A stretch of 46,205 bases of DNA from Verrucomicrobium sp. (lineage in GTDB: Bacteria > Verrucomicrobiota > Verrucomicrobiia > Methylacidiphilales > UBA1321): NCBI GenBank assembly GCA_017849585.1, contig JAFIGT010000032.1, positions 148,027 to 194,231 of the forward strand, in the 5' to 3' direction. The notes beneath the pieces are model-generated. The model was not told the origin of the DNA. It saw nothing but the letters and a program-made list of their open reading frames with translations, and ran no database searches. This document shows, piece by piece, positions 12,826-31,334 of this stretch (its first letter is position 1; every line of letters starts with the position of its first letter). Made by a program: the position numbers and the translations under genes.

Positions 12826-12862
12826 GCTTGCTCCGGTCGGCAGATTTGTTTATCCATTGAGA

Positions 12863-14471: not shown

Positions 14472-15602
14472 CTACGAGCTTTCGGCAGAGTGATTATTTC
14501 GAACGGACTTATTTCTTGATTTTCTGAATTTTAAATTCGAGATCGTAGATTTAGTGGGAGCTTCTGCGAGACTCTCCCGAACATTGAGTTCAGGCACAAT
14601 TTTGACGCATCGCGCCGCTTCAGATTCCTTGGTAGCGAGGCGCTTCTCGATTAAAGCTACGCATTCTTCGCCAAACTGGAGATAGTTCCACTTTAAGCTG
14701 GCCACGGAAGGAATATAGTAGTCGGCAAGGGGATCGTCTTGCATACAGATCACACTGCAATCGGCAGGTGTAGACCACCCTTGCTCATGCAGTGCGCGGA
14801 TGGCGCTATAACAGCCAGGCGAGCTACAGGTGATGATGGCTGTAAAAGGAAGATGTTTGGCGTGCTGTTTCAAGAGCGCGTGCAATGTTTGGTAAGCAGT
14901 TTGACCGCTGGCTTGCCCCGATTGGGTGAGGCAGTCGATGACTGGACAATCATGGAGATCCAAGAGGCTAGTCAGGTTCTTGAACGCCAATATCTTTTGG
15001 TCCACCTCATAGCAGTGGGGCTCCGTGCTGAGAAAAGCGATTCGCGAATGATTCAACGAGATGAGTTTTTTGAGAATCAAGCTAAGTCCTGCGGTGTCAT
15101 CTCCAGTTGCAGAATCAATTTTTAGCAATTGGGTATCGCACCCCAAAACGGCCAAAGGCATGGCAGAGGTCAGGAGTGTTTTGAAGATGGCGTAACCAAA
15201 GTTAGCGATTTCCGGCATGACGACTACGCCGTCGGCTCTAATCTCCGAATCAAACATTAGATCGGTATGCTCCGGATGAAACTGATAGGTCGCCATTGTC
15301 CAGCCACGGCGGGTACATGCCTCCATAACCCCGAGCTCCTTGATCTGAGCATTTAGCGAGGGAAATGTCGTGCGACAGAACGCGATGTGACGAGTGTTTT
15401 TTCGAGCGTTGATGTAAATGCCGCTGCCTTGGCGTGCGTTAATGAGCCCCTCATTTTCCAATTGCCTCAAAGCGGAGTTGACCGTGGAAATGCTCAAGTC
15501 GTATTGACGCATCAGGGCTCGAACGGAGGGTAGTCGCGTCTGCGCTGGTAGTGATAAGATTTTGTTGCGCAGTAATACAGCTAGAGTTTCGCGTTTTTTC
15601 AT
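14472..15602 (-). CDS. GntR/LacI-type regulator of the rhamnoside locus
   Basis: A 376-residue chimeric regulator. The N-terminal ~65 residues are a GntR-type winged helix (LPSVRALMRQYDLSISTVNSALRQLENEGLINARQGSGIYI). The remainder is a LacI/GalR-type periplasmic-binding fold (HIAFCRTTF, GVVVMPEI, PLAVLGCD, RIAFLSTEPH, AIITCSSPGCYSAIRAL, SVICMQDD). Such proteins usually repress sugar genes until a saccharide binds. The start at MKKRET is preferred because an upstream ATG lies inside a palindromic operator. It is divergent from the VPEP-tail gene of the downstream glycan locus. Confidence 0.9.
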   Translation of the reverse strand: MKKRETLAVLLRNKILSLPAQTRLPSVRALMRQYDLSISTVNSALRQLENEGLINARQGSGIYINARKNTRHIAFCRTTFPSLNAQIKELGVMEACTRRGWTMATYQFHPEHTDLMFDSEIRADGVVVMPEIANFGYAIFKTLLTSAMPLAVLGCDTQLLKIDSATGDDTAGLSLILKKLISLNHSRIAFLSTEPHCYEVDQKILAFKNLTSLLDLHDCPVIDCLTQSGQASGQTAYQTLHALLKQHAKHLPFTAIITCSSPGCYSAIRALHEQGWSTPADCSVICMQDDPLADYYIPSVASLKWNYLQFGEECVALIEKRLATKESEAARCVKIVPELNVRESLAEAPTKSTISNLKFRKSRNKSVRNNHSAESS

Positions 15603-15608
15603 TCCGAA

Positions 15609-15620
15609 TGTATGCATACA
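15609..15620. promoter_or_regulatory. Palindromic operator TGTATGCATACA
   Basis: A perfect 12-bp palindrome lies 7 bp upstream of the regulator start and 64 bp upstream of the divergent secreted-protein gene. Position and symmetry suit a GntR-type dimer controlling both directions. Confidence 0.55.
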
Positions 15621-15683
15621 CTTTGTTCCGAAAAATGCAAATATATTTCGACAGTTCTGTTTTCAAACTACATAATGCTTGCA

Positions 15684-16487
15684 ATGAAAACAAAAACATT
15701 CGCCCTGTGGACTTCATGTCTGACTTTGTTTCTGGGGTTAATCGCCGCCCAGCCCTTACGGGCTCAAACGATTATCAATTTGACCCAGGATGTCACAGTT
15801 CGGTCGGCCGGAGCGTATACGTATTATGCGCGAGGGGATGCGTCGGGAGTCGCTGTAGCTCCTTTTACGACTGCATTTTATCCTGGGGCTAGCCTGCACG
15901 CTTCCTCAGGCGGAACGGATGGCTCGCTGATTGATACGGGCGCGAATGGCGCTTCGGTGTCACTGAGTACGGGATATTTGAGTGATAATTCGGCATCGAC
16001 GTCTGTGTGGGGTTGGATAGATGTGGAGCAGGTGACGAGTGGCTCGGCCTCCACGACTCATAATGGATCCTTTGATATTCTGTTTGATCTAGGATCTACG
16101 TATGTAATCACCAGCGTGGTGGTAACCTATACCGATGCGAGTGGTAAGCGATGGACGTCGACGGCAAATACTCAGCTTGCTTTTACTTCGTTAACGGCGC
16201 CCACATCAGATAGCGGTTTGACTTCCTTTGCTTCTGCGACGACGGTCGGTAGTGCCACTAATGGGTTAATGACATTCGATGGTGCTGATGTTGAGGCGCG
16301 TTATGTAGACTTACGCTTGGACATGAGTATTGGGCCAAATCCAACTAGCGGATCGGTAGGTGGTATCGTTAGTGAGGTTGCTATTTATGGTTATGCGGTT
16401 CCGGAGCCTTCCACCTATGCCTTACTGGGTATGGGAGTAGTGTGTCTTTTTATCGGGGGCTCGCGGTGTCGTGGCTGGAAGCGTTAA
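15684..16487 (+). CDS. Secreted VPEP-tail (PEP-CTERM-like) protein
   Basis: A 267-residue exported protein. A signal peptide (FALWTSCLTLFLGLIAAQPLRA) opens it. Its end has the PEP-CTERM layout: VPEPSTYALLGMGVVCLFIGG, a transmembrane helix, then a short basic tail (RCRGWKR). This tail directs sorting by an exosortase to the cell envelope. The middle is Ser/Thr/Gly-rich beta-strand sequence with a discoidin-like pattern (DILFDLGSTYVITSVVVTYTD, ARYVDLRLDM), suggesting a carbohydrate- or surface-binding role. It heads the plus-strand glycan locus. The ATG at 15684 gives the best signal peptide. Confidence 0.85.
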   Translation: MKTKTFALWTSCLTLFLGLIAAQPLRAQTIINLTQDVTVRSAGAYTYYARGDASGVAVAPFTTAFYPGASLHASSGGTDGSLIDTGANGASVSLSTGYLSDNSASTSVWGWIDVEQVTSGSASTTHNGSFDILFDLGSTYVITSVVVTYTDASGKRWTSTANTQLAFTSLTAPTSDSGLTSFASATTVGSATNGLMTFDGADVEARYVDLRLDMSIGPNPTSGSVGGIVSEVAIYGYAVPEPSTYALLGMGVVCLFIGGSRCRGWKR

Positions 16488-16516
16488 CTTGGAAATTAAA
16501 TAATCTCTGCCTACTT

Positions 16517-17104
16517 ATGACATTATCGAATATGGGGTATCGCGGAGTGAAGTCGATTTACGGGGTGGCGCTACTTTGCTTAACGGCGATTAGCGTGTAT
16601 TCGCAAGGAATCAATTTTCTCGAGGCAGCGCCCCCGGATCGTCCGGGGTCAGAGGTATGGACGGGCATCGACGAGGCGCAAAAGAATGTACCGACCGAGA
16701 AGAACTCTAATTCCTATACGGGGCGCGTGGTAAATTTGCTTAGCTCCACTCCGCCCCCTGCGGAGGAAGGCTACTTTATTATTCTACCGCTGAGAATTCC
16801 GAAAACGAGCGATTACGAGCTCTGGATTGCTTGTAGTAAAATCGGAGCAACGTTTGCCTCTTCCATTCAGTGTTACTTGGATGGGGTTGAGATATCGCCC
16901 GAAATGCCGATACAACATGGTAATAAGGCATGGGGACCAGCCAATGCGATATCTTGGAATCGCTTTAGCACGCTGAATCTCAACGCCGGTGACCATGAGC
17001 TCAAAATCGTGGTCCGTAGTGCGCGGAAATTAGACTCAAAATACTCTATCGTCATGGACGCCGTAGCGCTTATGGACAAAAATGCCTCTTCCAACGTCAA
17101 ATAG
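16517..17104 (+). CDS. Exported galactose-binding-like protein
   Basis: A 195-residue protein with an N-terminal signal (SIYGVALLCLTAISVYSQG). The rest is beta-rich, with LPLRIPKTSDYELWIACS, IQCYLDGVEI and LNLNAGDHELKIVVRSARKLDSKYSIVMDAVAL. These resemble the galactose-binding/CBM jelly-roll folds that precede or accompany glycoside hydrolases. No catalytic motif is seen. It lies 29 bp after the VPEP-tail gene, probably co-transcribed, and may present bound polysaccharide to the next enzyme. Confidence 0.7.
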   Translation: MTLSNMGYRGVKSIYGVALLCLTAISVYSQGINFLEAAPPDRPGSEVWTGIDEAQKNVPTEKNSNSYTGRVVNLLSSTPPPAEEGYFIILPLRIPKTSDYELWIACSKIGATFASSIQCYLDGVEISPEMPIQHGNKAWGPANAISWNRFSTLNLNAGDHELKIVVRSARKLDSKYSIVMDAVALMDKNASSNVK

Positions 17105-17158
17105 CTCGACCTTTCCTATATCGCGTTTTCTTGCGATCAAGTTAGTTGCTTTTTTAAT

Positions 17159-18778
17159 ATGAACCGTCTTTTACTCTCTCTGTATTTCGGACTCACCTTG
17201 CTCGCGGCGGATGGTCTGGCGCAAACCAAATCTACCAAGGAGGAGCCTAGCCCAAGCGCTGATTCAAACACATGGGTTCCGCGTTTTTCGCAACTTCCGG
17301 CCGATGTGAGGTCTCAAATCCTAACCGGAACTCCGCGCAATTCCGGACAGATCGCTGACAGTCCGTTTGGAATTCACACCACCATATTGCAAGAGGGCGG
17401 TGATAGCAGCCTGATTGATAAAATGGCGACGTTGGCCTCGGATGCAGGATTCAAGTGGGTGGTCGAGTATCTTACCATTGGGGGTACCTCCAATATGACG
17501 CTGGCTGAGGTGGAGGCAAAATTCAGTCAATTGCCTGATCGTTGTTTTGAATATCCCCGAAAACTTCAGGCTGCGCATATCAATTTGCTCGTTCGACTGG
17601 ATATCCTGAGTTGGCATCCAGCTGGGAAAGCGGCCCCTTTTTCCTACGAACCAGGATCTGCTGACATGCTAAAAGCCAAAGCCTTTACAAGGCACATAGT
17701 GCGTCAACTCAAACCTTTCACTCATCACTGGCAGATATGGAATGAGCCAAATATCGGTAATGGAATGCCCTACGTCACGCCGGAGAATTATGTCAAGGTG
17801 CTTGAACAAATCGTTCCCATTATACGTCAGGAACAACCGAACGCGGTGATCTATGGTCCGGGCACGGCCATGTTACAGTGCCTGTCTGATAATCCTTATC
17901 CGTGGATACCAAACGTACTAAAGGCTGGTGTGCTCAAATACATTGATGTGTTTTCCTTCCATCCGTACAGGCAGCCCGCTACGAGAAACAATCTGCCGGA
18001 AAATGCGTCACAGTTTGCTCCGTGGGACACGTGGAAAGATTACAGAAGCCAGATTGCGGATCTGCGTGAAAAAATTCGACAATATAATGATGGAAAGGAC
18101 AAGCCGCTGGCTGCCACAGAGGATGGAATGCCAAACCTCATTAATGGAGAAGGCGTTCAGGAAATCACTTGGGTCGTAGGGGCTAAATATGAATTGCGTC
18201 GCGCTCTTCTGGATTTCCATCTCGGGATCAATCCACGGACGGTTTTCGCGCTGTACCGAAGAATACCAGATCCCTTCTATAATGAGCAATCCAGCTATAG
18301 TATTCTTACAGCTGATTTTGAAAGAAAGCCTCAGTATTTTGCGTCGCAAAATTTGAACGCTGTACTTGACTCCACTTACACGCGTGCGGATGACGTGATA
18401 CTCAAGATTATTCCTCCTAAAAATTCGCCTCTAAAAGGGGAGCTCTATACACAAGTTTACCGTAAAGACTTTGATAAGTTTGAAGAACTATTGGTATTTT
18501 ATTGGGTGGCAGAACCGGCGGATGATACCGCCAAGAAATATTTCGCCAGTCTGCAAATTGATCAATCTGGGTGGCAAAGCCCCTTATTGATTGATCTGAT
18601 GGCGATGCCAGTTCGCCGCCCCAAATCGGCGCCAGTTGAAATTATTGATTCCAAATTTATTGACCGTAGGGATCCAGTCCAGCTCATCGCTCGGAATGTC
18701 GAGAACGGCGTTTCGCTTGATAGAATTGAAGTGCGCGATTATCCTCAGTTGATCAAGTGGGTGCGCCTTAAAAAGTGA
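17159..18778 (+). CDS. Exported clan-A-like glycoside hydrolase
   Basis: A 539-residue secreted enzyme with signal peptide LLLSLYFGLTLLAADGLAQ. A TIM-barrel layout of the GH-A type is visible: the acid/base glutamate in HHWQIWNEPNIGNG (E196), FSFHPYRQP on the next strands, and a likely nucleophile in LAATEDGMPN (E321). The family number (GH39-like or similar) cannot be fixed by eye, so the substrate is open. Context with a GH78 enzyme suggests a rhamnose-containing plant or algal glycan. Its stop overlaps the GTG start of the pseudopilin gene by 4 bp, showing coupling. Confidence 0.82.
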   Translation: MNRLLLSLYFGLTLLAADGLAQTKSTKEEPSPSADSNTWVPRFSQLPADVRSQILTGTPRNSGQIADSPFGIHTTILQEGGDSSLIDKMATLASDAGFKWVVEYLTIGGTSNMTLAEVEAKFSQLPDRCFEYPRKLQAAHINLLVRLDILSWHPAGKAAPFSYEPGSADMLKAKAFTRHIVRQLKPFTHHWQIWNEPNIGNGMPYVTPENYVKVLEQIVPIIRQEQPNAVIYGPGTAMLQCLSDNPYPWIPNVLKAGVLKYIDVFSFHPYRQPATRNNLPENASQFAPWDTWKDYRSQIADLREKIRQYNDGKDKPLAATEDGMPNLINGEGVQEITWVVGAKYELRRALLDFHLGINPRTVFALYRRIPDPFYNEQSSYSILTADFERKPQYFASQNLNAVLDSTYTRADDVILKIIPPKNSPLKGELYTQVYRKDFDKFEELLVFYWVAEPADDTAKKYFASLQIDQSGWQSPLLIDLMAMPVRRPKSAPVEIIDSKFIDRRDPVQLIARNVENGVSLDRIEVRDYPQLIKWVRLKK

Positions 18779-19464
18779 AGACAGACTTGCAACAGATGGC
18801 TCATAGGGCGTTTAGCCTGATGGAATTGCTCGTGGCAATTTCGATCATCTGTATATTGGCGGCCCTCTTTCTGCCGACGGCCAAGAAAATGATGCAACGA
18901 GCCGCCAGTGCCAAGTGTCTCTCTAACATGCGACAGATTGGAATTGGATTCCACGCCTGCCTAGCAGAAAATAACTTGCTTATTCCCACGCAGCGAGCCA
19001 ACAGCGCAGGTGGAGCTCCTCCAGGCGGCGGTCAATTTTTCGCGCAGATTGGTCTGTACTGTGGATGGCCCAGTTCCTTGCCGGCAGGATCGAACGCCGC
19101 GAAGAATACATTCATGCATTGCCCCTCGCATACGGAGCAGGCTGGATCGTTTAGCTACCGTTTTAGCTCTTTTTTGATCGGAGATACAACCTCCACGACC
19201 TCTGCGATTCCCAATCATGCCTTGAGCTATGCGCTCATTAATGCCCCTCAGAGTAAAGTTTTGGCCTGGGAGATCCACACCACTTGCGGATGGCCGCTCA
19301 CCAGTTCTTATTCGGTGGGCACTGGGAAATGGCCTTTTACTCCGCTCTTTAGCGAAAAAACCTATACTCATGGAACATCCAGTAATTATCTATTTGCCGA
19401 TGGGCATGTGGAATCGAGGAGTGACTCTCTCGCAAACTGGATTTACTGGGCATATGACCGATGA
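18775..19464 (+). CDS. Type II-like pseudopilin with H-X9-DG segment
   Basis: A 229-residue protein with a class III prepilin leader: AFSLMELLVAISIICILAALFLP, where cleavage would fall before Phe and the Glu at +5 is kept. The C-terminus shows the H-X9-DG-type motif HGTSSNYLFADGHVES, typical of expanded pseudopilin families in Verrucomicrobiota, Planctomycetota and Lentisphaerota. It overlaps the hydrolase gene by 4 bp (GTG at 18775; an ATG at 18796 is also possible). It probably forms or caps a secretion or surface filament dedicated to this glycan locus; this is inference. Confidence 0.87.
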   Translation: MKTDLQQMAHRAFSLMELLVAISIICILAALFLPTAKKMMQRAASAKCLSNMRQIGIGFHACLAENNLLIPTQRANSAGGAPPGGGQFFAQIGLYCGWPSSLPAGSNAAKNTFMHCPSHTEQAGSFSYRFSSFLIGDTTSTTSAIPNHALSYALINAPQSKVLAWEIHTTCGWPLTSSYSVGTGKWPFTPLFSEKTYTHGTSSNYLFADGHVESRSDSLANWIYWAYDR

Positions 19465-19497
19465 TGCTGAGGAGCGAATAGATCTCTTCGTTAATAA

Positions 19498-22353
19498 ATG
19501 AGTAAAAGTAGTTATGATCTCACGAAGGGTGTGACACCCTATTATCTCCGGACCGAATGGCTTAAAGATCCCCTTGGGGTGGATGTTGTTTTGCCACGCC
19601 TATCATGGCAATTGCGGGAGAATAGTGGCCGAAGTAAAAAACAATCCGCATATCGGATTCTTGCTGCTTCGACACGCGAACTCCTTGATCAAAATATCGG
19701 AGATAAATGGGACAGCGGAAAAATCAAGAGCGATGAGACATTGCAAATAGTGTACGGAGGGGCCTCCTTAAAATCAGGGGAAGAAGTTTTCTGGAAAATA
19801 AGGACATGGGATGAAAAAGATGACATGTCGGTATGGAGTGACGTAGCCAAGTGGTCGATGGGATGGCTTCATCCAGATAATTGTCATGCTAAATGGATTT
19901 CCTGCGTGGATTCATTTCCACTACATCGCCATCAGCAGACACTGTTTCTCCCTCCCGCGCGTTACTATCGCAAGTCGTTCAAGCTTTCTCGTCCGGTCAA
20001 ACGCGCTGTCGTCTATGTCTCTGCGCTTGGGCTATTCGATCTCTATCTAAATGGGAAGCGAGTTGGTGATTCCTACTTTCAACCCGGTTGGTCGGATTAT
20101 CGACAGCGGGCCTATTATAGAACCTTTGATGTTACTTTGATGCTTGAATCTGGTTTCAATTCGATTGGTGTGGTTCTTGCGGATGGATGGTACAGTGGCT
20201 ATGTCGGTTTCGGTGCATTTGTTGGATATGGCCCGAATAAATCAGGGCGGTACTTTTATGGGAAAACACCGGCTCTGCTTTTTCAACTTGAAGTAGAATA
20301 TTCGGACGGTTCGCGTGAAGAAATTGTATCCGATCAAACATGGGAAGTAAGTCAGGATGGCCCTATTCGAGAGGCTGATATTTTGATGGGAGAAACTTTT
20401 GACGCGCGGAGGCATTGCGTTGATTGGGCTCAGAATGAGAGCCATGCGAAGTCCGATCTGAAATGGAGCTGGCAACTCGCCATTGAGGCTGAAACGTTGC
20501 CCTCGTGCTGCACGATCTTTCGGGACGCGCTTGGTGAAAGAGAGGTAGACTTAAAGTTTCGAAAACCTGCCCGGCTACAATCTTATATGGCTCCTCCTGT
20601 GCGCGTGACTCAGGAGTTAAGAGTTCAGAAAATAACTGATTTGGAATCGGGAGCCTATATTCTCGATTTTGGACAGAATTTTTCAGGACTTGTCCGTACT
20701 CGCTTTAAAGGCCGGGCGGGGCAATGCGTGCAATTACGCTACGGTGAAATGTTGCATCAAGACGGGCAACTCATGATTGAGAATTTACGTCGGGCTCGTG
20801 CAACGGATACGTATATTTTTGCCGGTATACCAGAAGGAGAAGAGTGGAGTCCTCGGTTTACCTATCACGGATTTCAGTATGTGGAAATTTCCGGACTTGA
20901 TTATAAGCCAAGCCCGGGCGATATCACGGGACTGGTCCTTCATAGTGATACTCCATTTGTCGGCGAATTTGCGTGCTCAGATCCAGTGCTTACCAAGTTT
21001 TCCAAAAATGCATTTTGGACACAGCGCTCCAATTTTTTTGAGATTCCTACGGACTGCCCGCAACGTGATGAGCGATTGGGCTGGACAGCGGATGCGCAGG
21101 TGTTTATTCGCGCGGCTACATATCGCGCGGATGTAGCCGCATTTTTCAATAAGTGGATGGACGATGTCCGGGAAGCGCAACTGCCTTACGGAGCTTACCC
21201 TGATTATTGTCCGTTCCCAATGGCGCATGGTAAAGCATTCAGTACCGCGTGGTCGGATGCAGGAATCATTTGTCCATGGACAGTCTGGAAAGTTTACGGT
21301 GATACACGAGTTATCGAAAAACAGTGGGAATCGATGAGTCGGTTTATGGAGTGGCGAGACGCCACGTCAGCTAAAAGCGGACTGGGAACTTCCATCGGCA
21401 ATCTATGGGGAGATTGGCTGAACGCAGGTGAATCCACACCGATTGAATACATCGATATATGTTATCACGCCTTTGATTGCAAATTGATGAGCGAGATGGC
21501 CTCAGTATTGGGGAAAAAAATTGAGGAGAATCATTATAAAGAGCGGTTCAAGAAAATTCGGAGCGCATTTCAGGAACACTATTTAGCTGACCATGGAAAA
21601 CTGAAAGTTAATACGCAAACTGCGTATGCCCTAGCCCTCTGTTTCGATTTGATTTCTGCGGAACAGTCACCCGAAACGGCTTCACATCTAGCGCAAAAAA
21701 TCCGAGATAAAGAGCTCACGATGACCACCGGTTTTTTGGGAACGCGGTTCATCTTGCCTGCGCTCACTGCCCATGGACAGCATCCGTTAGCTGTACAGCT
21801 ATTCCAGAGTCGTAACTATCCATCTTGGGCTTACGAAGTGCTCAATGGGGCAACCTCGGTTTGGGAACGGTGGGACAGTTACACGGAACAGTATGGATTT
21901 GATGGTCTTGATGGTAAACAAAATGCGGGTATGAACAGCTTCAGTCACTACGCTTTTGGCGCAGTAATGGAATGGGCATTCCGTGATTTGGCTGGAATTG
22001 ATACAGACGGTGAAGGATATCGCAGGATTCTTATTAAGCCTGGCTTTGTGTTGGGAGACCTGAAGCGCGATCCTAACCGTATTCACTGGGTAAAGGCTGA
22101 TTACCACTCTGTACGAGGACTGATCCAGGTGACCTGGCGGCAGGAGGACGATAGCACAGATCTCGAGGTAACGATACCGCCTAACACTACGGCGCGGATA
22201 TTTATGCCTGCAAAGGATGAGCCTTCAATTCTAGAGGGTGGTCGACCACTTTCAGCGGCAGAGGGAATTTCCGTGTATGGCAGGCATGGCTGCTTCTTTG
22301 TGTTGCAAACCGGATCAGGGCATTTCTCACTGTCATCAAAGAAGTATAGGTGA
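19498..22353 (+). CDS. GH78 alpha-L-rhamnosidase
   Basis: A 951-residue GH78 enzyme that removes terminal alpha-L-rhamnose. The N-terminal beta-sandwich domains (residues ~15-400) include GLFDLYLNGKRVGDSYFQPGWSDYRQR. The (alpha/alpha)6 catalytic domain carries PTDCPQRDERLGWTADAQVF (about residues 517-536) with the conserved acidic DER site, then NLWGDWLNAGE, YEVLNGATSVWERWDSY and MNSFSHYAFGAVMEW. No signal peptide is seen, so it may act in the cytoplasm on imported oligosaccharides. It ends the locus regulated by the GntR-LacI gene. The released L-rhamnose would feed the isomerase at 6.5 kb. Confidence 0.94.
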   Translation: MSKSSYDLTKGVTPYYLRTEWLKDPLGVDVVLPRLSWQLRENSGRSKKQSAYRILAASTRELLDQNIGDKWDSGKIKSDETLQIVYGGASLKSGEEVFWKIRTWDEKDDMSVWSDVAKWSMGWLHPDNCHAKWISCVDSFPLHRHQQTLFLPPARYYRKSFKLSRPVKRAVVYVSALGLFDLYLNGKRVGDSYFQPGWSDYRQRAYYRTFDVTLMLESGFNSIGVVLADGWYSGYVGFGAFVGYGPNKSGRYFYGKTPALLFQLEVEYSDGSREEIVSDQTWEVSQDGPIREADILMGETFDARRHCVDWAQNESHAKSDLKWSWQLAIEAETLPSCCTIFRDALGEREVDLKFRKPARLQSYMAPPVRVTQELRVQKITDLESGAYILDFGQNFSGLVRTRFKGRAGQCVQLRYGEMLHQDGQLMIENLRRARATDTYIFAGIPEGEEWSPRFTYHGFQYVEISGLDYKPSPGDITGLVLHSDTPFVGEFACSDPVLTKFSKNAFWTQRSNFFEIPTDCPQRDERLGWTADAQVFIRAATYRADVAAFFNKWMDDVREAQLPYGAYPDYCPFPMAHGKAFSTAWSDAGIICPWTVWKVYGDTRVIEKQWESMSRFMEWRDATSAKSGLGTSIGNLWGDWLNAGESTPIEYIDICYHAFDCKLMSEMASVLGKKIEENHYKERFKKIRSAFQEHYLADHGKLKVNTQTAYALALCFDLISAEQSPETASHLAQKIRDKELTMTTGFLGTRFILPALTAHGQHPLAVQLFQSRNYPSWAYEVLNGATSVWERWDSYTEQYGFDGLDGKQNAGMNSFSHYAFGAVMEWAFRDLAGIDTDGEGYRRILIKPGFVLGDLKRDPNRIHWVKADYHSVRGLIQVTWRQEDDSTDLEVTIPPNTTARIFMPAKDEPSILEGGRPLSAAEGISVYGRHGCFFVLQTGSGHFSLSSKKYR

Positions 22354-22364
22354 AGTATGAGGTG

Positions 22365-22730
22365 TCAGTGTGGTGGACTGGGAAAGTGTGTTTGCGTCGT
22401 CTCCACGATCTTCAACCCTCGAATAATCTGGAACGGCTTGCTGCGCGTGGCTCGGCTCGAACGATCTTGGGACGATTCCTTACCCTGCTGGATATAGGCA
22501 TCAATCACATCCTGCCATGTCCGACTGACCAACGCCGGGTCTTGGGCTGACAGATAAACCTTCGCAATGGCAGTATTCAAGGCGGGCTGCGTGATCGTCT
22601 CAGAATGCGCCACAAGCAGCCGTTGAGCCTCCACCCGGTCTTTGGTGCGAAGGCTGGTCTGCTGTTTCGTCTGGGTGTCCTCGGCGTAAAACACCTTGCT
22701 CCGCCGAAATAATCTGAACCGAGCCGCCAT
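22365..22730 (-). pseudogene. Truncated tyrosine recombinase (element A integrase remnant)
   Basis: A 121-residue fragment matching only the N-terminal arm/core-binding part of the intact integrase at 42090-43139. Aligned features include MAARFRLFRRSKVFYAEDT, LVSRTWQDVIDAYIQQGKES and KPFQIIRG. The catalytic domain is missing, and the fragment ends 11 bp from the GH78 stop. It lies just left of a tRNA-end att core, as an integrase of an older element would. Confidence 0.85.
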
Positions 22731-22857: not shown

Positions 22858-22928
22858 TTGCCTAGGGAACGGGCTAAGGCTCTACTTTGGGAGTTGTCTA
22901 AATCCTTGAGAGTCAAGGAACTAAAGAG

Positions 22929-22950
22929 TGGCTCCGGAGGTAGGGCTCGG
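22929..22950 (-). other. attL core: tRNA 3'-end duplicate (left)
   Basis: A 22-bp sequence identical to 43324-43345. Read on the minus strand it ends CCTACCTCCGGAGCCA, i.e. T-stem, acceptor strand CTCCGGA, discriminator G and CCA, fitting a tRNA-Asn 3' end. The rest of the tRNA is absent on the right, so this copy is a duplicated end, not a gene. A palindrome TCCTTGA-GAG-TCAAGGA (22903-22919) lies 9 bp away. Confidence 0.85.
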
Positions 22951-23733: not shown

Positions 23734-24828
23734 TCAGGCAATCTGCTGATAGAGGGTTGCCGTGGGAGATTCAGAAACTTCGGTGCCGTCGAAAACCAAT
23801 TCCGTTTGCCTGCTTTTTTCCGCGCGGGACATGGCGGCGACGATGCGCAGTCCTGAAGCGAGTGGCGCTATTGGCGTTTCGATCGGCTCACCGTCAATTG
23901 CCCGATAAAAGGCGTCCCATTGATAAGCCCCGCTCCGGGTCGGGTGCTGCAATTTTTGTATTACCGGTTTTTTGTTGTCGCTGGTAAGTAATTGAAGAGT
24001 GGTCGTGCCTTCGGGGCCTCCTCCAAACAAGAGCGGACCGACGTTACGGTAAATGGTTCCTCGCTCGAAATTAAGTGTGAGCGTATCAGTCCATCGCTGA
24101 CCGTCATCAATACAGAAGGACGCGAAGACGTTCGCGAGCGCTCCGTTTTTGAATTGGATTCCAATTTGCGCTGTATCGGGTGTAGGTCTCCCGGTGCGGA
24201 TGCGTGAAGTCAGGACCTGAACTGCTTTAGCTTCTCCGAAGAGATGCACCAAATCATTGATCAGGTATATTCCAATGCGGAAGATCGGGGCAACCGGACA
24301 GCGATCAGAATCGTCATACCAACTACCATCCGCCGTTTCGTTGTAGGAAATGTAGGTATCAGCCCGGCAGGAAATGGGGCGGCCCAGATTGTATTGCTCT
24401 CTCCAGTGCTCGATCGTGGCCAAATCCGGTGGTAACTGTGGCGCGGGTGAATTGAGATGAACAACACGCTGAAGCCTTTGCGCCTCGGTCAACACCCGTA
24501 TTGCTTTTTGAGCGTCGAGTTCGAAGGGCTTAGTGGTCATCACATGCTTGCCCGCCTGAATGATCTTATGGATCAATTCCGCTCGTCCTGCGGGTCCTAC
24601 AAACAGTCCAACGGCGGGAATGTCCGGGTCGGCAAGAATCTCGTCCAGTGTCCGGATGGGAGCGGGATGAATCGCCGCCATCGCGTGTACCCGCTCCGAA
24701 TTGAGATCGCTCAACGCAGCCAGACGAAAATAGCGGCCCGCGCCATTGTGGTCGGCAAGCGCTTTGAGGATCCAGCGCCCGTAGTTCAACCCAACAATGG
24801 CGATCGGCTTGGGTACAACAGAAATCAT
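23734..24828 (-). CDS. Gfo/Idh/MocA-family oxidoreductase
   Basis: A 364-residue NAD(P)-dependent oxidoreductase. The N-terminal Rossmann fold starts PIAIVGLNYGRWILKAL, and the family's cofactor-side motif reads AGKHVMTTKPFELDAQKA, where TKP replaces the usual EKP. The C-terminal half is the substrate beta-sheet domain (FRIGIYLINDLVHLFGE, TAQIGIQFKNGALANVFASF). These enzymes oxidise or reduce sugars and their derivatives. It lies downstream of the VPEP-tail gene on the same strand. The precise sugar is unknown. Confidence 0.88.
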   Translation of the reverse strand: MISVVPKPIAIVGLNYGRWILKALADHNGAGRYFRLAALSDLNSERVHAMAAIHPAPIRTLDEILADPDIPAVGLFVGPAGRAELIHKIIQAGKHVMTTKPFELDAQKAIRVLTEAQRLQRVVHLNSPAPQLPPDLATIEHWREQYNLGRPISCRADTYISYNETADGSWYDDSDRCPVAPIFRIGIYLINDLVHLFGEAKAVQVLTSRIRTGRPTPDTAQIGIQFKNGALANVFASFCIDDGQRWTDTLTLNFERGTIYRNVGPLLFGGGPEGTTTLQLLTSDNKKPVIQKLQHPTRSGAYQWDAFYRAIDGEPIETPIAPLASGLRIVAAMSRAEKSRQTELVFDGTEVSESPTATLYQQIA

Positions 24829-24870
24829 AGTGAAGTCTTTCGCTTTTGCGCCACTCTCTTGCCATTGTGA

Positions 24871-25581
24871 TTACGCGTATTGCTTGCGGCGCAACCAGGC
24901 AACGCTTCCCACCCCAATCATACCGGCTACGGCCAGCGAGAGATTCTTCGGTTCGGGTACGGACTGAATTGAAAAAGTGAAGACCCTGTTTTCCGCAAGC
25001 GCTGTGTATGAAGCCCCGGAATCAGTTGTATAAAATCCATAACCAACGTCATTACTGCCCCCACTATTAGCTCCTCCCAAATAGAAATTCATGTAGCGAT
25101 TCGTGGCGGCGCTATTGAACGAAAGGATCACCCCATAGTTTTCATTGGCAGTGAGTTGAAAGGGAGTCGCCAGATCGATCATGAGATATCCCTGACTGCT
25201 GTAGGTAGCGGGAATTGTTGCTGTCTCGGAGTAAAGCACCGCCGAGGAATAGGGCATGGAAGGACTCTTGAGAGTATCCATTGAGACGATGGAAATCGTA
25301 ATGTCGGCCCCTAAAGCCGCCGCGCCCACACTCGTGGTTTGAAGCATCAAGGTGACGGTATCGAGCTTAGTGGCTGAAGGAGAGGAAAAGCTAAAGCCGA
25401 CCCAGCGGTTGCTAGATGAATTATTCCGCAACTGATACGTCGATGCGGAATCGACGGTGGTGTAGCTGAGGAGTTGATTGGAGGTGGGTAAATCCGAATT
25501 GAAAACGACCGTAGCCGCTGAGGAATTGATGATTGCGGCAACGATCGCTCCAAGAAGAAGCGGGAGGTGGAGTGCTTTCAT
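24871..25581 (-). CDS. Secreted VPEP-tail (PEP-CTERM-like) protein
   Basis: A 236-residue exported protein. The signal peptide is MKALHLPLLLGAIVAAIINSSAA. The end has the sorting layout VPEPKNLSLAVAGMIGVGSV, then AWLRRKQYA. The body is beta-rich (RWVGFSFSSPSATKLDTVTLML, YLMIDLATPFQLTANENYGVIL), like a family of exported proteins with choice-of-anchor-type domains. It is divergent from the GntR-LacI regulator across a long palindrome and leads the minus-strand pair with the oxidoreductase. The start is chosen for the signal peptide; an upstream in-frame start lies in the operator region. Confidence 0.85.
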   Translation of the reverse strand: MKALHLPLLLGAIVAAIINSSAATVVFNSDLPTSNQLLSYTTVDSASTYQLRNNSSSNRWVGFSFSSPSATKLDTVTLMLQTTSVGAAALGADITISIVSMDTLKSPSMPYSSAVLYSETATIPATYSSQGYLMIDLATPFQLTANENYGVILSFNSAATNRYMNFYLGGANSGGSNDVGYGFYTTDSGASYTALAENRVFTFSIQSVPEPKNLSLAVAGMIGVGSVAWLRRKQYA

Positions 25582-25609
25582 GTAAAGAGCGATAGCAACT
25601 ATTGAGGCT

Positions 25610-25653
25610 GAGGTCAATTATAATTACCAAATTTGATAATTATAATTGACCTC
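25610..25653. promoter_or_regulatory. 44-bp near-perfect palindromic operator
   Basis: Arms of 21 bp (left arm starts GAGGTCAATTATAATTA) flank a 2-base centre with only one mismatched pair. It lies between the divergent VPEP-tail and GntR-LacI genes and is very AT-rich, so it could bind the regulator and also contain both promoters. Confidence 0.75.
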
Positions 25654-25656
25654 ATC

Positions 25657-25670
25657 TGATAAATTTATCA
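25657..25670. promoter_or_regulatory. Second palindrome TGATAAATTTATCA
   Basis: A perfect 14-bp palindrome 3 bp beyond the 44-bp palindrome and 10 bp before the regulator start. It shares the AAATTT centre with the larger palindrome, suggesting a second operator for the same protein. Confidence 0.65.
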
Positions 25671-25680
25671 ATATGCCCTT

Positions 25681-26820
25681 ATGCAGTCGCTTCCTCCCGT
25701 TCGCTCCAGCGTGGTCAATGAGATGTGCCGCCGCCTTATTGATGAGATCGTGGCGAGTCGATTCCCTAACGGCCAACTCCCGACATCAGCCGAGCTAGCG
25801 AAGCGCTTTCAGGTGGGAACAGCCACCATTAACCGAGCCATGAAGTACCTCCAAAAAGAGGGCTGGGTGGATCGACGTTCTGGCGTGGGGACATTTCTTG
25901 GGCCTCGCTCGCTGGCGGGCAAGGAAGGTGTCGGTTTGTCGATGGCGGGTATTAGTACTGAGAAAAAGACGATCCGGATTGCCGTTGTCGTCCTGCCGTT
26001 GAATTTTTCCCTAGATAACTGGCACGTTCAAAATCTCCTACCGGGCATTGACGCAGGCGCGGTGGAGAACGAGGGTGTCATTGTGGAGTTGATGAGTCCT
26101 TGCGGGGGCGACACAGACCGGTTTGCCCGCCGCCTGGAGCAAAGCGCGCCCGATCTGGTTGTTTTCCTCAAGCCGGTGATCGAAAGCGCTCCGCTGATTC
26201 GGGAAGTGGAACGACTGCGGATTCCCTGCTTGGCCACGGGAACTCGCTGGCGCGGCATGGGAGTTCCTCAAGTGGAGGAAGACGGCGAAACGGGTGCTCG
26301 ATTGGCGGTTGAGAAATTGGTGGCGGCCGGGCATAAACGGATCGGTCTATTAATTCCCGATGTGGCGGCCCCCTTGTGGTTGGATCGGCGGCATGGCTAT
26401 GAACAAGCCATGCGTCAGGCTTTTGGTACCTTGGATCAGAATTTAATCCTGTGGATGCCGCCTCTACCGCAGGAAAGTGATTCGGCGCGGCTTTTGGATT
26501 ATATTGAGCAGCAGAAACCCACGGCGCTATTTATGGCGCGGGGACTGGACAGCGTTCTCTTCAAGCCGCTTCTGTGCGAAGGAAAGATTCGCATTCCTGA
26601 GGACCTTTCCTTGATAGCGTTTGATTATCGAAGCGACGTTTACCGGGACGTCTTTGGCGCGCTGACGCCCACGGTGATCGATCTTCCTCTCTTCGAAATG
26701 GGGAAAAAAGTTGTCGAGCTTGCGTGTCTCTATAAAGCGGGAAATCCACTCCCAGAGCGCACCTTGGTTCCCTGCGTCTTGAAGGAAGGGGAAAGCGTGC
26801 GGGCCTTGGCGACCAATTAA
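25681..26820 (+). CDS. GntR/LacI-type regulator of the element-borne sugar locus
   Basis: A 379-residue chimeric regulator with a GntR winged helix (LPTSAELAKRFQVGTATINRAMKYLQKEGWVDRRSGVGTFL) and a LacI/GalR-like sensor (IRIAVVVLPL, DLVVFLKPVI, IPCLATGTRW, HKRIGLLIPDV, RRHGYEQAMRQAF, ALFMARGLDS, LSLIAFDY). It shares domain order with the regulator at 14.5 kb but differs much in sequence. It probably controls itself, the divergent VPEP-tail/oxidoreductase pair and the downstream plus-strand genes through the palindromes upstream. Confidence 0.92.
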   Translation: MQSLPPVRSSVVNEMCRRLIDEIVASRFPNGQLPTSAELAKRFQVGTATINRAMKYLQKEGWVDRRSGVGTFLGPRSLAGKEGVGLSMAGISTEKKTIRIAVVVLPLNFSLDNWHVQNLLPGIDAGAVENEGVIVELMSPCGGDTDRFARRLEQSAPDLVVFLKPVIESAPLIREVERLRIPCLATGTRWRGMGVPQVEEDGETGARLAVEKLVAAGHKRIGLLIPDVAAPLWLDRRHGYEQAMRQAFGTLDQNLILWMPPLPQESDSARLLDYIEQQKPTALFMARGLDSVLFKPLLCEGKIRIPEDLSLIAFDYRSDVYRDVFGALTPTVIDLPLFEMGKKVVELACLYKAGNPLPERTLVPCVLKEGESVRALATN

Positions 26821-26849
26821 ACTCGACCGCGGAAAACCGGTTTACTCCC

Positions 26850-27578
26850 ATGCACTTTCAGTTCTCTCGACTGTCGCTTGACTCAACAAAGAGGGCAAGA
26901 ATGACAGCCTATAGTCTCATGGAAGTTCTACTGGCGATTTGCATTCTGGTCATTCTCGCCGTACTCCTCGCGCCAACATTTCAAGTCGCACGGACGACCA
27001 GCTTACGCATGCAGGGGCTCTCCAACATGCGGCAGACCATTTCCGCGATCCTGCTTTACGCTGCGGATCATGACAACAAGCTTCCCGGTCCGCTCGATGA
27101 ATTTCATTATCCGGCCGTTACCACAAAGACCGATCAACTCGCTTACTTCATCGGCACTTACCTCGGCGTGCCGGCCAATGCCAGCGCGGGCGTGGCCGTG
27201 ACACCCATGGCCCCGGTTGCGTTTCTGTCCAAAAATGATCCCACGAAAAAGGCCTGCTATTTCGCCATCAACAATATTTATCTGCCGACTTCCGGCTCTA
27301 AAAATATCTATATCAAGCCGTGGGGAACGACTAATCAAAAAGCAGGATATACCGAGGCGGACCATACTCCGAAATCGCTCTCGGTCATTCCCACTCCTGC
27401 GGAAACCGTAGCCATTATTGACGCGGATTCCCAACTGCGAACCACGCTGGGCGCGGTGGGAGAGCGGACGTACCTGATCAAAGATCCGCTCTATGGAAAG
27501 CTGCGCAATGCCGGTTTTTTCGACGGACACGTCGAATCCGTGCCCATCGATTACAATATGTTTCCCTATTTCAAATAG
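26850..27578 (+). CDS. Type II-like pseudopilin with H-X9-DG-type end
   Basis: A 242-residue protein with a prepilin leader at residues ~18-45 (MTAYSLMEVLLAICILVILAVLLAPTF); the cleavage-site position +1 is unusual (Tyr or Ser rather than Phe). The end reads AGFFDGHVESVPID, matching the DG end of the H-X9-DG family. It follows the regulator by 29 bp and precedes the propeller gene by 12 bp, so it is in the sugar operon. It parallels the pseudopilin at 18.8 kb. Confidence 0.85.
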   Translation: MHFQFSRLSLDSTKRARMTAYSLMEVLLAICILVILAVLLAPTFQVARTTSLRMQGLSNMRQTISAILLYAADHDNKLPGPLDEFHYPAVTTKTDQLAYFIGTYLGVPANASAGVAVTPMAPVAFLSKNDPTKKACYFAINNIYLPTSGSKNIYIKPWGTTNQKAGYTEADHTPKSLSVIPTPAETVAIIDADSQLRTTLGAVGERTYLIKDPLYGKLRNAGFFDGHVESVPIDYNMFPYFK

Positions 27579-27590
27579 ACCTTTATTTCT

Positions 27591-28772
27591 ATGCTCACTC
27601 CCAACCCGATTTGGACAAGAACGCTTCTGGCGGTTTCTTTGATCGCTGCAAATTCAATCCCCCTCTTTTCGCAGGAAGAGCCGCTCTCCCTCTGGAATAA
27701 AGAGGCTGTCCTCCGAGTGGTAAAAGGACCGGCGAACAGTTACTACACTTACTCTCACTCCAACGCATTTTTGTCGGATGGCTGTACCTTTGTCGCTGCG
27801 CAAAAAGACGAGGCGAAGACCCGCTTCATTGCGATTGATCCGGTCAAGAACACGCAGATCCCGGTTGGCGAAGTAGAGAACATCCGGATGTTTTATAGTA
27901 TTTCCAATAACGGACTGCTGGCTTTTATCTCCAACGATATGAAGCTAGAGGTGCTCGACATCACCAAGCCGGGCACGCCACCGAAAGTCGTCGCGCAAGC
28001 GCCCGAGTCCTGGCGCTATTCGCAGTCACCGGACATTTCCGCCGATGGCCGCCAGATTACTGTCGATCGCCATGAATATACCGCCCATCGACACATCATC
28101 TCTGTCTACAACGTGGAGACCGGGAAAGAACGTATCGTGACGGAAAAAAGTTGGCTGGCCAATCATGCCTGCTTTTTCCCGACGGACAACGACTGGATCA
28201 TGTTTGTCCATAGCGGAAACACTCTTCAAGAGATCAAGGACTCACAGATCGAAGGCCGGATCTGGGCCTGGAATGAAGAGAAGTTCCCGACGGGAAAAAT
28301 GCTTTTTACGCAAAAAGACGAAAGCCGCGTGCTGAGCACCACTCACCCGATCCCCATGTATCATAAACGGTCTATACTTTTTGTGATGGACCCGGAAAGC
28401 GTTGGGATGTCACCCGGCTTGTACGAGATAAATACCGAAGGCGAATACCGATGCGTCAGTCCGTCTGATTACGATCTGCACTGCAATATTAGCCGGGATG
28501 GCCGTCTCGCCGTGGTCGATACCCGCAAGATGGTGAACGAGCCCAAGATCGCTCAATTAAAAACGTCCAGCCGGATCAGCGATATCGTTCTGGTGAACAT
28601 GACCAACGGGAAACGCCTCTTTCTCTATCGATCCACCATGAAAAATCACCCTTATCACGTGCATCCTCACATCAGCCCAGATGGGCGCTGGATTGTATTC
28701 ACTGACTTCGATGAGAAACGGGCCATGGCCTTAGAACTGAATCCTGAAGCTGTCCGTAAATTACTAGAATAA
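27591..28772 (+). CDS. Exported oligogalacturonate-lyase-like beta-propeller
   Basis: A 393-residue secreted protein with signal peptide (RTLLAVSLIAANSIPLFSQ) and repeated propeller blades (SPDISADGRQITVDRHEY, NISRDGRLAVVDTRK, HPHISPDGRWIVFTDFD). The C-terminal HVHPHISPDG resembles the metal-binding His region of PL22 oligogalacturonate lyases, which cleave unsaturated pectin oligomers. The match is partial, so a related non-pectin role is possible. It lies within the element's sugar operon. A decayed relative remains at about 7.9-8.1 kb. Confidence 0.72.
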   Translation: MLTPNPIWTRTLLAVSLIAANSIPLFSQEEPLSLWNKEAVLRVVKGPANSYYTYSHSNAFLSDGCTFVAAQKDEAKTRFIAIDPVKNTQIPVGEVENIRMFYSISNNGLLAFISNDMKLEVLDITKPGTPPKVVAQAPESWRYSQSPDISADGRQITVDRHEYTAHRHIISVYNVETGKERIVTEKSWLANHACFFPTDNDWIMFVHSGNTLQEIKDSQIEGRIWAWNEEKFPTGKMLFTQKDESRVLSTTHPIPMYHKRSILFVMDPESVGMSPGLYEINTEGEYRCVSPSDYDLHCNISRDGRLAVVDTRKMVNEPKIAQLKTSSRISDIVLVNMTNGKRLFLYRSTMKNHPYHVHPHISPDGRWIVFTDFDEKRAMALELNPEAVRKLLE

Positions 28773-28801
28773 TCGGCTCTTCGAGATATGAGAAATGGCG
28801 A

Positions 28802-29863
28802 ATGAATTCTTCCTCTTTTTTTCAACGCTTGCTCCCGGCGCCGGTGGGCGGCGGCTTTGCGATGGACGATTACTGGATTTGGTGTCCCTCGGTGCTGCGA
28901 GACGATACAGGACTCTATCACATGTTTGCCAGCCGATGGCCGCGCCGGATGAGTTTCAGTCCCCACTGGCTGACTAATTCTGAAATCGTGCGCGCAACAT
29001 CGCCAACGCCGGAGGGGCCCTACCATTTTCAAGAGGTTGTACTTCCAGCGCGAGGATCACATCATTGGGATGGGCGAATGACGCACAATCCTTCGATTCG
29101 TCGTGCTGCCGACGGGACCTGGCTGCTTTTCTATACTGGTTCCACTTACGATGGCGATACCCCCACGCCAGAAGCTCCGATTGAAGCGGTAGACCCTGGA
29201 GAATTATCTGAAATGCCGAAAGTCGATAAACGCATGGCTCAGGCGCATCGCAATCAGAAAATCGGCCTCGCCACGGCTCCATCGCCAGCCGGTCCATGGA
29301 AGAGAAACGATCATCCCATTCTTGAGCCTCGTCCGGATAAGTGGGATGCGCTGTTGACGACAAATCCCGCCCCATGTGTATGTCATGACGGACGTGTACT
29401 GCTTATCTATAAATCGGTCCGGTTTCGTGGTGATTCAATGTTTCTGGGAGTCTCTCAAGCTGAACATTACGCAGGACCTTATGAACGCTTGCAAGATGAA
29501 CCGATTTTGCGGTTCGGAAATAAGGATGATGTAGAAGATCCTTACGTTTGGTGCCAGGACGGCTTCTTCCATCTGATCATGAAAGATATGGAAGGGGGTA
29601 TTGGCGGCGAGCGACGTGGCGGGATCAAGGCTACTTCGAGGGATGGAATTCGGTGGACTCTGGATGCCGATCCCAAGGCCTATTCGCGTCACATTAAATG
29701 GCAGGACAGAAAGGAAACTTTTCAGGATTTTTTCGAGCGTACAAGTTTGCTTCTTGATGAAAATGGATGTCCAACACATCTCTTTGCCGCGACAGCCACT
29801 GGTTCAGCCCATGTTGGAGCCCTGAGCCGTTCGTGGAATATGGTGATTCCCCTTCGACACTAA
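28802..29863 (+). CDS. Five-bladed-propeller glycoside hydrolase (GH43-like)
   Basis: A 353-residue enzyme without a signal peptide. Blades typical of GH43/GH117-like enzymes are visible: GFAMDDYWIWCPSVLRDDTGLYHMFASRWP at the start, RMTHNPSIRRAADGTWLLFYTGS, TTNPAPCVCHDGRVLLIYKS and DDVEDPYVWCQDGFFHLIMKDMEG. Acidic residues in each are candidates for the catalytic triad. The exact family and substrate are not clear by eye. It precedes the transporter by 4 bp, so it probably acts on imported oligosaccharides. Confidence 0.8.
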   Translation: MNSSSFFQRLLPAPVGGGFAMDDYWIWCPSVLRDDTGLYHMFASRWPRRMSFSPHWLTNSEIVRATSPTPEGPYHFQEVVLPARGSHHWDGRMTHNPSIRRAADGTWLLFYTGSTYDGDTPTPEAPIEAVDPGELSEMPKVDKRMAQAHRNQKIGLATAPSPAGPWKRNDHPILEPRPDKWDALLTTNPAPCVCHDGRVLLIYKSVRFRGDSMFLGVSQAEHYAGPYERLQDEPILRFGNKDDVEDPYVWCQDGFFHLIMKDMEGGIGGERRGGIKATSRDGIRWTLDADPKAYSRHIKWQDRKETFQDFFERTSLLLDENGCPTHLFAATATGSAHVGALSRSWNMVIPLRH

Positions 29864-29867
29864 TATT

Positions 29868-31334
29868 ATGGAGAAGTCGCTACAGATAGAAGTGACAAAA
29901 AATTCTGCTTCTTCAAAGCTTTCTGGAAAATTTTGGACCGCGGGGACACTGACCTATTCCCTACCAGCCCTTGTAGCACTCTTTGCTTGGCTTCTATTTG
30001 GAGATTTTGCATGGTCGATGCGAGACCGCTCTGTAGGACCAATGTCCCAGTGGTATCTCAATCATCTCAAGGTGCCGAGTCTGCTTTTTGCTCTCCTCGT
30101 GACTTCGTTGCCCGCGCTGATTCAACTCCTCGTCGTTCCGTTGATCAGCGTTAGATCCGACCGTCATCGGGGACGATGGGGACGGCGGATTCCGTTTCTG
30201 CTGATTACAACGCCCATGGCCGTCCTGGGCACAATCGGCCTCGGACTCACACCGTTCTTTGCAGCGTGGTTGCACGAAACCTGCAATTCGGCGCCGTTCG
30301 GAACATGGTTGCATCGCAGCCTCGACGGAATTCCCTTTGGAGCTTGGACGCTCTCAATGATCGCAGATGAGATGGTGGTATCTGTCATTTGTTTCAGCAT
30401 TTGCTGGACTTCCTTTGAGGTCGCCACCATCGCGGGAAAACCGGTCTTTGATGGCTTGCTTAACGATGTGGTGCCACGGCCCTTGCTAGGTCGCTTTTAT
30501 GGATTGTTTCGTGCGGTGAGTTTGATCGATGGAATGATTTTCAATTACTGGATCATGGGTTACGTACCGACTCATTTTTCGATCATCATGATCACGGTCG
30601 GCCTTTTCTACGGCATGGCCTTTCTATGGGTTTGTTTCAAGGTGAGGGAAGGCGACTACCCGCCGCCACCCCAAAACGAGGGGAATGGAATGACCGCGAG
30701 TTTTTTGGTGGAAGCAAAACGCTATTGCCGCGAGTGCTTTTCCCATCCGTATTATCTCAGCGTCTTTGTCATGATGATGGCTGCTTCGTTATGCTTTGGT
30801 CCGATCAATATCTTTTGCATTCCCTATGCACAGCATCTCGGTGTGGACATGAAGCTCTATGGCCAAGCTGTGGCGCTGACCTATCTCATTTCATTAACCC
30901 TTGCCTATCTCCTCGGATGGATGGCCGACCGGTTTCACCCTTTGCGCATGGCGATCGGCGTCTTGATCGGTTACGCGCTGGTGACGGCTTGGGGGTGGGC
31001 CTATGCGCACAATGCCAAAACTTTTTTGATTGCCTGGGTACTGCATGGAGTTCTCTCAGGCTGCTACTTCACCGGCACCGCCTCACTCGCACTGCGATTG
31101 TTTCCTCATGAAAAGTTCGCCCAGTTTGCCTCGGCCGCAGGCATTTTCATCGCCACGTCCAATATATTTATGGGGCCGCTATTGGGAAGCGTGATCGACC
31201 GTTCGCATGGAGCCTATCGGTATACCTTTGCTGCTGCCTTTCTACTAACTCTAGGCGCACTCGTTGCCGCGTGCGTGGTTTATCCAATGTTCAAGAAGAG
31301 AGGCGGACCCGTTCATTATATAGCTCCGGAATAA
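29868..31334 (+). CDS. MFS sugar/glycoside transporter
   Basis: A 488-residue membrane protein with about 12 hydrophobic segments. The loop SDRHRGRWGRRIPFLLITTP after the second segment is the hallmark of major facilitator and glycoside-cation symporter-type carriers, and GRFYGLFRAVSLIDG is a related loop in the middle. It is the last gene of the sugar operon and presumably imports the oligosaccharide released outside. Substrate unknown. Confidence 0.88.
   Translation: MEKSLQIEVTKNSASSKLSGKFWTAGTLTYSLPALVALFAWLLFGDFAWSMRDRSVGPMSQWYLNHLKVPSLLFALLVTSLPALIQLLVVPLISVRSDRHRGRWGRRIPFLLITTPMAVLGTIGLGLTPFFAAWLHETCNSAPFGTWLHRSLDGIPFGAWTLSMIADEMVVSVICFSICWTSFEVATIAGKPVFDGLLNDVVPRPLLGRFYGLFRAVSLIDGMIFNYWIMGYVPTHFSIIMITVGLFYGMAFLWVCFKVREGDYPPPPQNEGNGMTASFLVEAKRYCRECFSHPYYLSVFVMMMAASLCFGPINIFCIPYAQHLGVDMKLYGQAVALTYLISLTLAYLLGWMADRFHPLRMAIGVLIGYALVTAWGWAYAHNAKTFLIAWVLHGVLSGCYFTGTASLALRLFPHEKFAQFASAAGIFIATSNIFMGPLLGSVIDRSHGAYRYTFAAAFLLTLGALVAACVVYPMFKKRGGPVHYIAPE

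Follow-up and report, generated by a model that had tools for sequence, protein, structure and literature searches.

Dedicated H-X9-DG pilins in recurring carbohydrate operons of a Verrucomicrobium genome

Two glycan loci lie in the window, a stretch of 46,205 nucleotides from Verrucomicrobium sp. (assembly GCA_017849585.1, contig JAFIGT010000032.1, positions 148,027 to 194,231 of the forward strand): locus A at positions 14472-22353 of the window and locus B at 23734-31334. An original prediction, made from the sequence alone, held that each contains a regulator with GntR-type and LacI-type domains (GntR-LacI), an envelope protein with a VPEP tail, a prepilin and carbohydrate enzymes; profile matches, together with a reading by eye of the tail in locus B, bear this out. 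The two loci are part of a set of about forty glycan-utilisation operons, each with its own pilin, and the analysis outlined here supports a recurring carbohydrate operon plan with a dedicated pilin that chance does not explain. Composition, operon structure, clustering and the presence of suitable machinery are observed; secretion signals were called by a heuristic.

The source genome (4.79 Mb in 43 contigs) yields 90 prepilin matches, 43 of which carry the H-X9-DG motif. Gene neighbourhoods were compared with a rotation null (2000 rotations, limited to contigs whose length is known, 3.79 of 4.79 Mb; 41 H-X9-DG pilins; 5-kb radius). A LacI-type sugar-binding regulator lies within this radius of 17 of the 41 pilins (5.9 expected), a PEP-CTERM gene within that of 26 (7.3 expected) and both within that of 11 (2.3 expected). 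Moreover, 11 pilins have a same-strand PEP tail ending at most 300 bp upstream, where 0.13 would be expected; none of the 2000 rotations matched any of these four counts. The order of the two genes is directional, with 15 PEP genes within 300 bp upstream of a pilin versus 2 within 1.8 kb downstream. GntR-type regulators taken alone show a weaker effect (6 versus 2.05 expected; 42 of 2000 rotations), and the 44 pilins that lack H-X9-DG show no regulator enrichment against the same null. Thus, the co-occurrence of pilin, PEP-CTERM and regulator genes near carbohydrate enzymes, which the original prediction proposed to count, is nonrandom in its own genome. The GntR-LacI type as a defining part of the plan was rejected: it accounts for 5 of 18 regulators beside H-X9-DG pilins and 13 of 42 elsewhere. 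Because the GntR type is no commoner beside pilins than elsewhere, the real association is with the LacI superfamily.

With runs defined by a simple distance criterion, 39 of the 41 pilins belong to a multigene run on one strand. The families among their operon partners (n = 104) are PEP-CTERM (10), GH42 (8), GH5 and GH10 (5 each), and LacI, GntR and CBM9 (4 each); control proteins (n = 110) gave GH5 and GntR twice each, the other partner families being absent from the control listing. A Sec-like signal was called in 77 of 112 operon partners versus 53 of 193 controls. Similar pilins also tend toward similar partners (Mantel r 0.30; 0 of 5000 permutations). In per-protein scans, many partners of about 900 amino acids are weak matches to GH10, GH42, GH5, GH39 or CBM9. 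Separately, six pilin-linked proteins of 830 to 1023 amino acids with weak or no matches to GH10, GH42, GH39 or CBM9 possibly represent undescribed families of carbohydrate-active enzymes (CAZymes): L085:1041-3932, L092:6782-9472, L094:4919-7411, L103:4668-7385, L118:4637-7342 and L126:4092-7163.

Parts of the plan extend well beyond this genome. Strong H-X9-DG matches number 21, 23 and 10 in genomes of the genus and 0 to 5 in other genomes of the order, and none was found in any of the 13 genomes of one family, f8 (mostly complete, 1.9-2.5 Mb). In a neighbourhood survey of 40 pilin loci from other families and 40 controls, GntR lies near pilins at 9 loci versus 1 control, and a LacI-type domain at 9 versus 3. 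Survey neighbours include CBM9, GntR, Peripla_BP_3, GH28, GH42 and LamG, none of which is in the control list. The pilins themselves were detected by regular expression in 32 of the 40 loci, or in 16 if a small residue was required before the Phe. PEP-CTERM is frequent within the genus; in the survey of other families, PEP tails stand at 5 of 40 loci versus 1 of 40 controls, an undercount given the exact-tail expression used, and PEP-CTERM as a phylum-wide part of the plan was rejected on these counts. In total, pilin, sugar regulator and glycan genes recur across the phylum, and the PEP-CTERM part is confined to some lineages. The combination foreseen by the original prediction therefore stands as a nonrandom one, with its GntR-LacI component unspecific and its PEP-CTERM component dependent on lineage.

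What kind of pilins are these? The prepilin Glu (Glu5) is invariant in a 45-member alignment that includes pilin B, while the family diverges strongly, at 14-31% identity to pilin A. Pilin A scores at the edge of the H-X9-DG-CTERM model TIGR04294 (15.7 bits by hmmscan and 18.8-19.1 in a genome search; cut-off 19). The TIGR04294 prepilins share the C-terminal motif and the class III signal and are widespread in the phylum (at least one match at E 1e-4 in 107 of 289 sampled genomes); they differ in that the family is defined by sequence, has no stated function and implies nothing about operon context. The prediction of an H-X9-DG pseudopilin in both loci holds for locus A; in locus B, Tyr replaces His (Y-X9-DG) and neither TIGR02532 nor TIGR04294 matches, yet pilin B belongs to the same family: against a profile of the 43 other pilins, from which it and its orthologue had been excluded, it scores 103.9 bits along its length. 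GspG, like these proteins, has a class III signal and a pilin helix at its N-terminus. However, against the GspG equivalog TIGR01710 (cut-off 88.85) pilin A scores 18.9 and pilin B gives no match, and the genome holds a separate, canonical GspG (116.8). The only structures that an AlphaFold2 (AF2) model of pilin A (pLDDT 77) resembles are type IV pilins (best Z 5.5); a Foldseek search of the PDB returned no match below E 0.001. Verru_Chthon cassettes, which are groups of several pilins, were also considered as a home for the family: 26 of the 45 members match TIGR02596 weakly, and single pilins with enzymes do not fit such cassettes. Elsewhere in the genome, tandem trios of pilin genes without H-X9-DG are perhaps Verru_Chthon cassettes (C2:36.7-38.8 kb, C11:126.9-128.0 kb, C20:120.9-122.1 kb and C8:39.8-41.1 kb).

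The canonical GspG gene stands next to GspE- and GspF-type genes, apart from loci A and B, and the genome has further PilB/PilC-type genes and two exosortase genes (PF09721; E 2e-43 and 5e-43); machinery for pilin assembly and PEP-CTERM sorting is thus present. At C41:6634-13582, an exosortase gene lies a few kilobases from an H-X9-DG pilin gene and two PEP-CTERM genes. Based on this organisation, we posit that the operon pilins are exchangeable subunits that adapt a shared type II secretion/type IV pilus machine to their own enzymes or glycan, with LacI-type control and a PEP-CTERM anchor, a reading we consider evenly balanced between right and wrong. In this model, a LacI-superfamily repressor (LacI or GntR-LacI) would respond to a sugar product by releasing its own operon, often including the PEP-CTERM gene. 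The shared machinery would process the operon pilin and build it into the pseudopilus as an exchangeable subunit; the pilin would in turn adapt that machinery to the enzymes or glycan of its operon, so that the hydrolase or lyase, once exported by Sec, reaches the cell surface or is retained there, and the exosortase-sorted PEP-CTERM protein would act as an envelope or matrix anchor. Oligosaccharides would enter without SusC-type receptors and then be imported by an MFS-type transporter, and GH78 and GH43/117-like enzymes would finish them in the cytoplasm. Both the processing of the pilin and its cargo- or substrate-specific role are steps that we infer.

Two published verrucomicrobial systems bear on this reading. 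In Verruconatronum alginivorum (Opitutales), a PulG-like pseudopilin lies inside an alginate-induced cluster and has 67 homologues in the genome; its authors propose that the lyases leave by type II secretion, and the proteomics had one replicate per treatment (PMC13274419). The likeness, drawn here from the published description, lies in a pseudopilin within a substrate-induced polysaccharide-degradation cluster, in the many paralogues and in a history of gene transfer; the differences are that PEP-CTERM and LacI are absent from the paper's main text and that it holds no genome-wide association test (PMC13274419). In Akkermansiaceae, the type IV-like pilus locus MUL2 (a mucin utilisation locus) serves glycan attachment, and so places a type IV-like pilin in a verrucomicrobial glycan acquisition locus (PMC13174399). 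MUL2 consists of a single conserved locus of four genes, PilM among them; here, about 40 differing CAZyme operons carry single pilins. The claim that no described system has this composition is qualified by both precedents, but our literature searches found no paper in which pilin operons under LacI-type control are paired with PEP-CTERM proteins, repeated across the genome and mobile.

Could the pilin instead be a glycan-capturing tip or adhesin, such that a type IV-like pilus binds polysaccharide for uptake, as proposed for MUL2, with no enzyme export? With a single TonB plug domain in the genome, another outer-membrane route would be needed, and the tie in Akkermansiaceae between a type IV-like pilus and the attachment and uptake of glycans (PMC13174399), the divergence of the pilins, as of binding domains, and the closeness of the pilin model to type IV pilins all fit such capture. 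Set against this, the comparison of the globular part of pilin A with PDB structures found no lectin or enzyme fold, no amuc_1099-1102-type cluster with PilM and a MUL2A pilin is present among the genes of loci A and B, and MUL2 went undetected in Methylacidiphilales (PMC13174399). We regard capture without export as possible, if somewhat unlikely. Less probable still, in our judgement, is that there is no special machine, that is, that regulators, PEP-CTERM proteins, pilins and CAZymes are expanded families gathering in glycan loci, with the pilin a passenger spread by duplication and transfer. The lineage-specific expansion of the pilins agrees with this, as does the probable placement of locus B on an integrated element (see below), and the proximity of regulators to PEP-CTERM genes does not depend significantly on pilins; a mere passenger is hard to square with the directional PEP-pilin order, the operon-like runs, the missing regulator association of pilins without H-X9-DG and the induction of a pseudopilin with an alginate operon in another verrucomicrobium (PMC13274419).

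Several observations weigh against the proposal of exchangeable, operon-specific subunits. PEP genes lie near 10 of 18 regulators with pilins and 10 of 32 without (p 0.13), and part of the clustering could be indirect, through shared glycan loci, because regulators without pilins are also near PEP genes. Neither a regulator nor a PEP gene lies within 5 kb of 10 of the 43 pilins, and partner comparison within the genome shows many similar pilins with unrelated partners. In a same-genus genome (G039), the locus A hydrolase has a 60% identical orthologue whose operon also holds a GntR-LacI regulator, a PEP-CTERM protein, further glycosidase-like genes and a pilin; this pilin shares only 26% identity with pilin A, so the pilin does not strictly follow the enzyme. 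The sequence evidence does not distinguish export from capture.

The operon plan is kept while its parts are exchanged. Locus B minus its Gfo/Idh gene is intact in G039 at 91-94% identity, with no Gfo/Idh homologue in the stretch examined around the orthologous block. PEP-B is 92% identical to its counterpart in stretch L153 of G039 and 34% in Geminisphaera colitermitum TAV2, and regulator B is 94% identical in stretch L271 and 52% in TAV2, where the PEP/regulator pair is kept beside a pilin operon that, by inspection, also has an esterase and glycosidases.

The genes of the two loci are listed in Table 1. As had been proposed, the pilin genes lie inside operons, and the start of pilin A shares 4 bp (GTGA, 18775-18778) with the stop of the hydrolase gene, although a later ATG start is possible; the PEP-CTERM gene of locus A likewise could have a longer open reading frame (ORF) starting at 15612. 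The proposed divergent regulator is present in locus A; in locus B, the regulator shares its strand with the pilin and enzymes and diverges only from PEP-B and the Gfo/Idh gene. In Pfam scans, the small secreted protein of locus A gave no match and its hydrolase matched no family, PslG being the best PDB match of the latter (E 5e-9). In the GH78 protein, PF17389, PF08531, PF05592, PF25788 and PF17390 are all above cut-off. PEP-B does not match TIGR02595 and has only weak matches to PEP_CTERM_TLD_A and choice_anch_R. For the secreted protein at 27591-28772, the AF2 model predicts a seven-bladed propeller nearest PL22 structures: the top PDB hits are two of these (3pe7, Z 27.9; 3c5m, Z 27.7; best unrelated 22.8), Foldseek gives E 1e-17, and an H-x-HP..SPDG pattern is kept in four sequences. 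Based on the GH78 enzyme in locus A and on oligogalacturonate lyases as the best structural matches in locus B, the enzyme sets of both loci fit pectic or rhamnose-containing glycans as predicted substrates. Upstream of locus A, at 9143-14338, two CrtI-type desaturase-like genes flank an aldehyde dehydrogenase gene, by eye probably a C30 carotenoid cluster.

Table 1. Features of loci A and B and of the surrounding element (window coordinates)
Feature	Position	Strand	Evidence
Locus A: regulator, GntR-type helix-turn-helix + LacI-type sugar-binding (Peripla_BP_3)	14472..15617	-	PF00392 49.8 bits, PF13377 78.5 bits
Locus A: PEP-CTERM envelope protein; Sec signal, VPEP-TM-basic tail	15684..16487	+	TIGR02595 21.7 (cut-off 16); PF07589 23.5
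Locus A: small secreted protein; carbohydrate-binding-module-like by eye only	16517..17104	+	Sec-like signal (heuristic)
Locus A: secreted GH-A-clan hydrolase, PslG/GH39-like	17159..18778	+	phmmer to PslG over 179-419; GH39 xylosidase E 0.035
Locus A: H-X9-DG prepilin (pilin A); class III signal RA|FSLMELL	18775..19464	+	TIGR02532 25.4 bits (cut-off 16.3)
Locus A: GH78 alpha-L-rhamnosidase, no signal peptide (heuristic)	19498..22353	+	PF17389 374 bits + four companion domains
Locus B: Gfo/Idh/MocA oxidoreductase	23734..24828	-	PF01408 44.6, PF22725 50.2 bits
Locus B: PEP-CTERM-like envelope protein (PEP-B; SVPEP tail)	24871..25617	-	tail SVPEPKNLS..WLRRKQYA (VPEP-TM-RRK) by eye
Locus B: GntR-LacI regulator, opens pilin/enzyme run	25681..26820	+	PF00392 44.6, PF13377 54.8 bits
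Locus B: prepilin (pilin B; AYSLMEVLL..SNMRQ..FFDGHVES)	26850..27578	+	103.9 bits over 12-232, profile of 43 other pilins
Locus B: secreted PL22-like (oligogalacturonate lyase-like) propeller	27591..28772	+	AF2 model versus PDB
Locus B: GH43/GH117-like enzyme, no signal peptide	28802..29863	+	PF04616 24.6 bits, under cut-off; PDB anhydrogalactosidase/GH43 E 0.002-0.02
Locus B: MFS sugar transporter	29868..31334	+	PF07690 67.2, PF13347 32.0 bits
Near-perfect palindrome, 46 bp, between PEP-B and regulator B genes	25609..25654		23-nt arms 96% complementary
Left direct repeat of integrated element	22913..22950	+	38 nt, 84% identical to right repeat, last 22 nt identical
Right direct repeat of integrated element	43308..43345	+	pairs with 22913-22950

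The divergent promoter of locus B, in the 63-bp gap between the PEP-B and regulator B ORFs, contains a palindrome whose core is absent from shuffled sequences. In G039 (stretch L153), its arms are 24 nt and 100% complementary, with the outer bases changed; the symmetry is thus kept despite those changes, as expected of an operator. We infer control through this palindrome, which is probably an operator of locus B. As an operator common to other cassettes it was rejected: outside locus B, the core was found solely in the orthologue from the same genus. Locus B is probably carried by a 20.4-kb integrated, mobilisable element, because direct repeats (22913-43345) enclose it together with a ParA-like gene (32461-33183, by eye), a TrwC relaxase gene (34156-37140) and an integrase gene (42090-43160) that adjoins the right repeat. 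Immediately beyond the left repeat is a truncated second integrase gene (22365-22730). In G039, no ParA-like, relaxase or integrase genes occur in the stretch examined around the orthologous block.

How far does the analogy with Bacteroidota reach? Sus-type polysaccharide utilisation loci likewise combine a locus-specific surface component, CAZymes and a sugar-responsive regulator, with many repeats per genome. In contrast, no SusC-like TonB-dependent receptor or SusD was found among the genes of loci A and B, and the whole 4.8-Mb genome, for all its glycan operons, has just one TonB plug domain (PF07715), on another contig, which argues strongly against SusC-type uptake for some forty loci. 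The suggestion that pilin and sorted protein work as SusC/D do thus shrinks to a functional analogy at most. Within that limit, we tentatively speculate that these operons may be a pilin-based counterpart of Sus-type loci, a rather doubtful idea in which Verrucomicrobiota would fit one shared secretion/pilus machine to dozens of glycans by exchanging operon-encoded H-X9-DG pilins, each induced together with the enzymes of its operon through a LacI-type regulator and, in some lineages, paired with an exosortase-anchored envelope protein.

Verrucomicrobiota break down difficult polysaccharides, and this member of the phylum does so with almost no TonB-dependent receptors in its genome. A pilin for each operon, if true, would account for the sharing of a single export or capture machine among many enzyme sets. 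An H-X9-DG pilin in an operon would also serve as a marker in the search for new glycan loci and undescribed CAZyme families.

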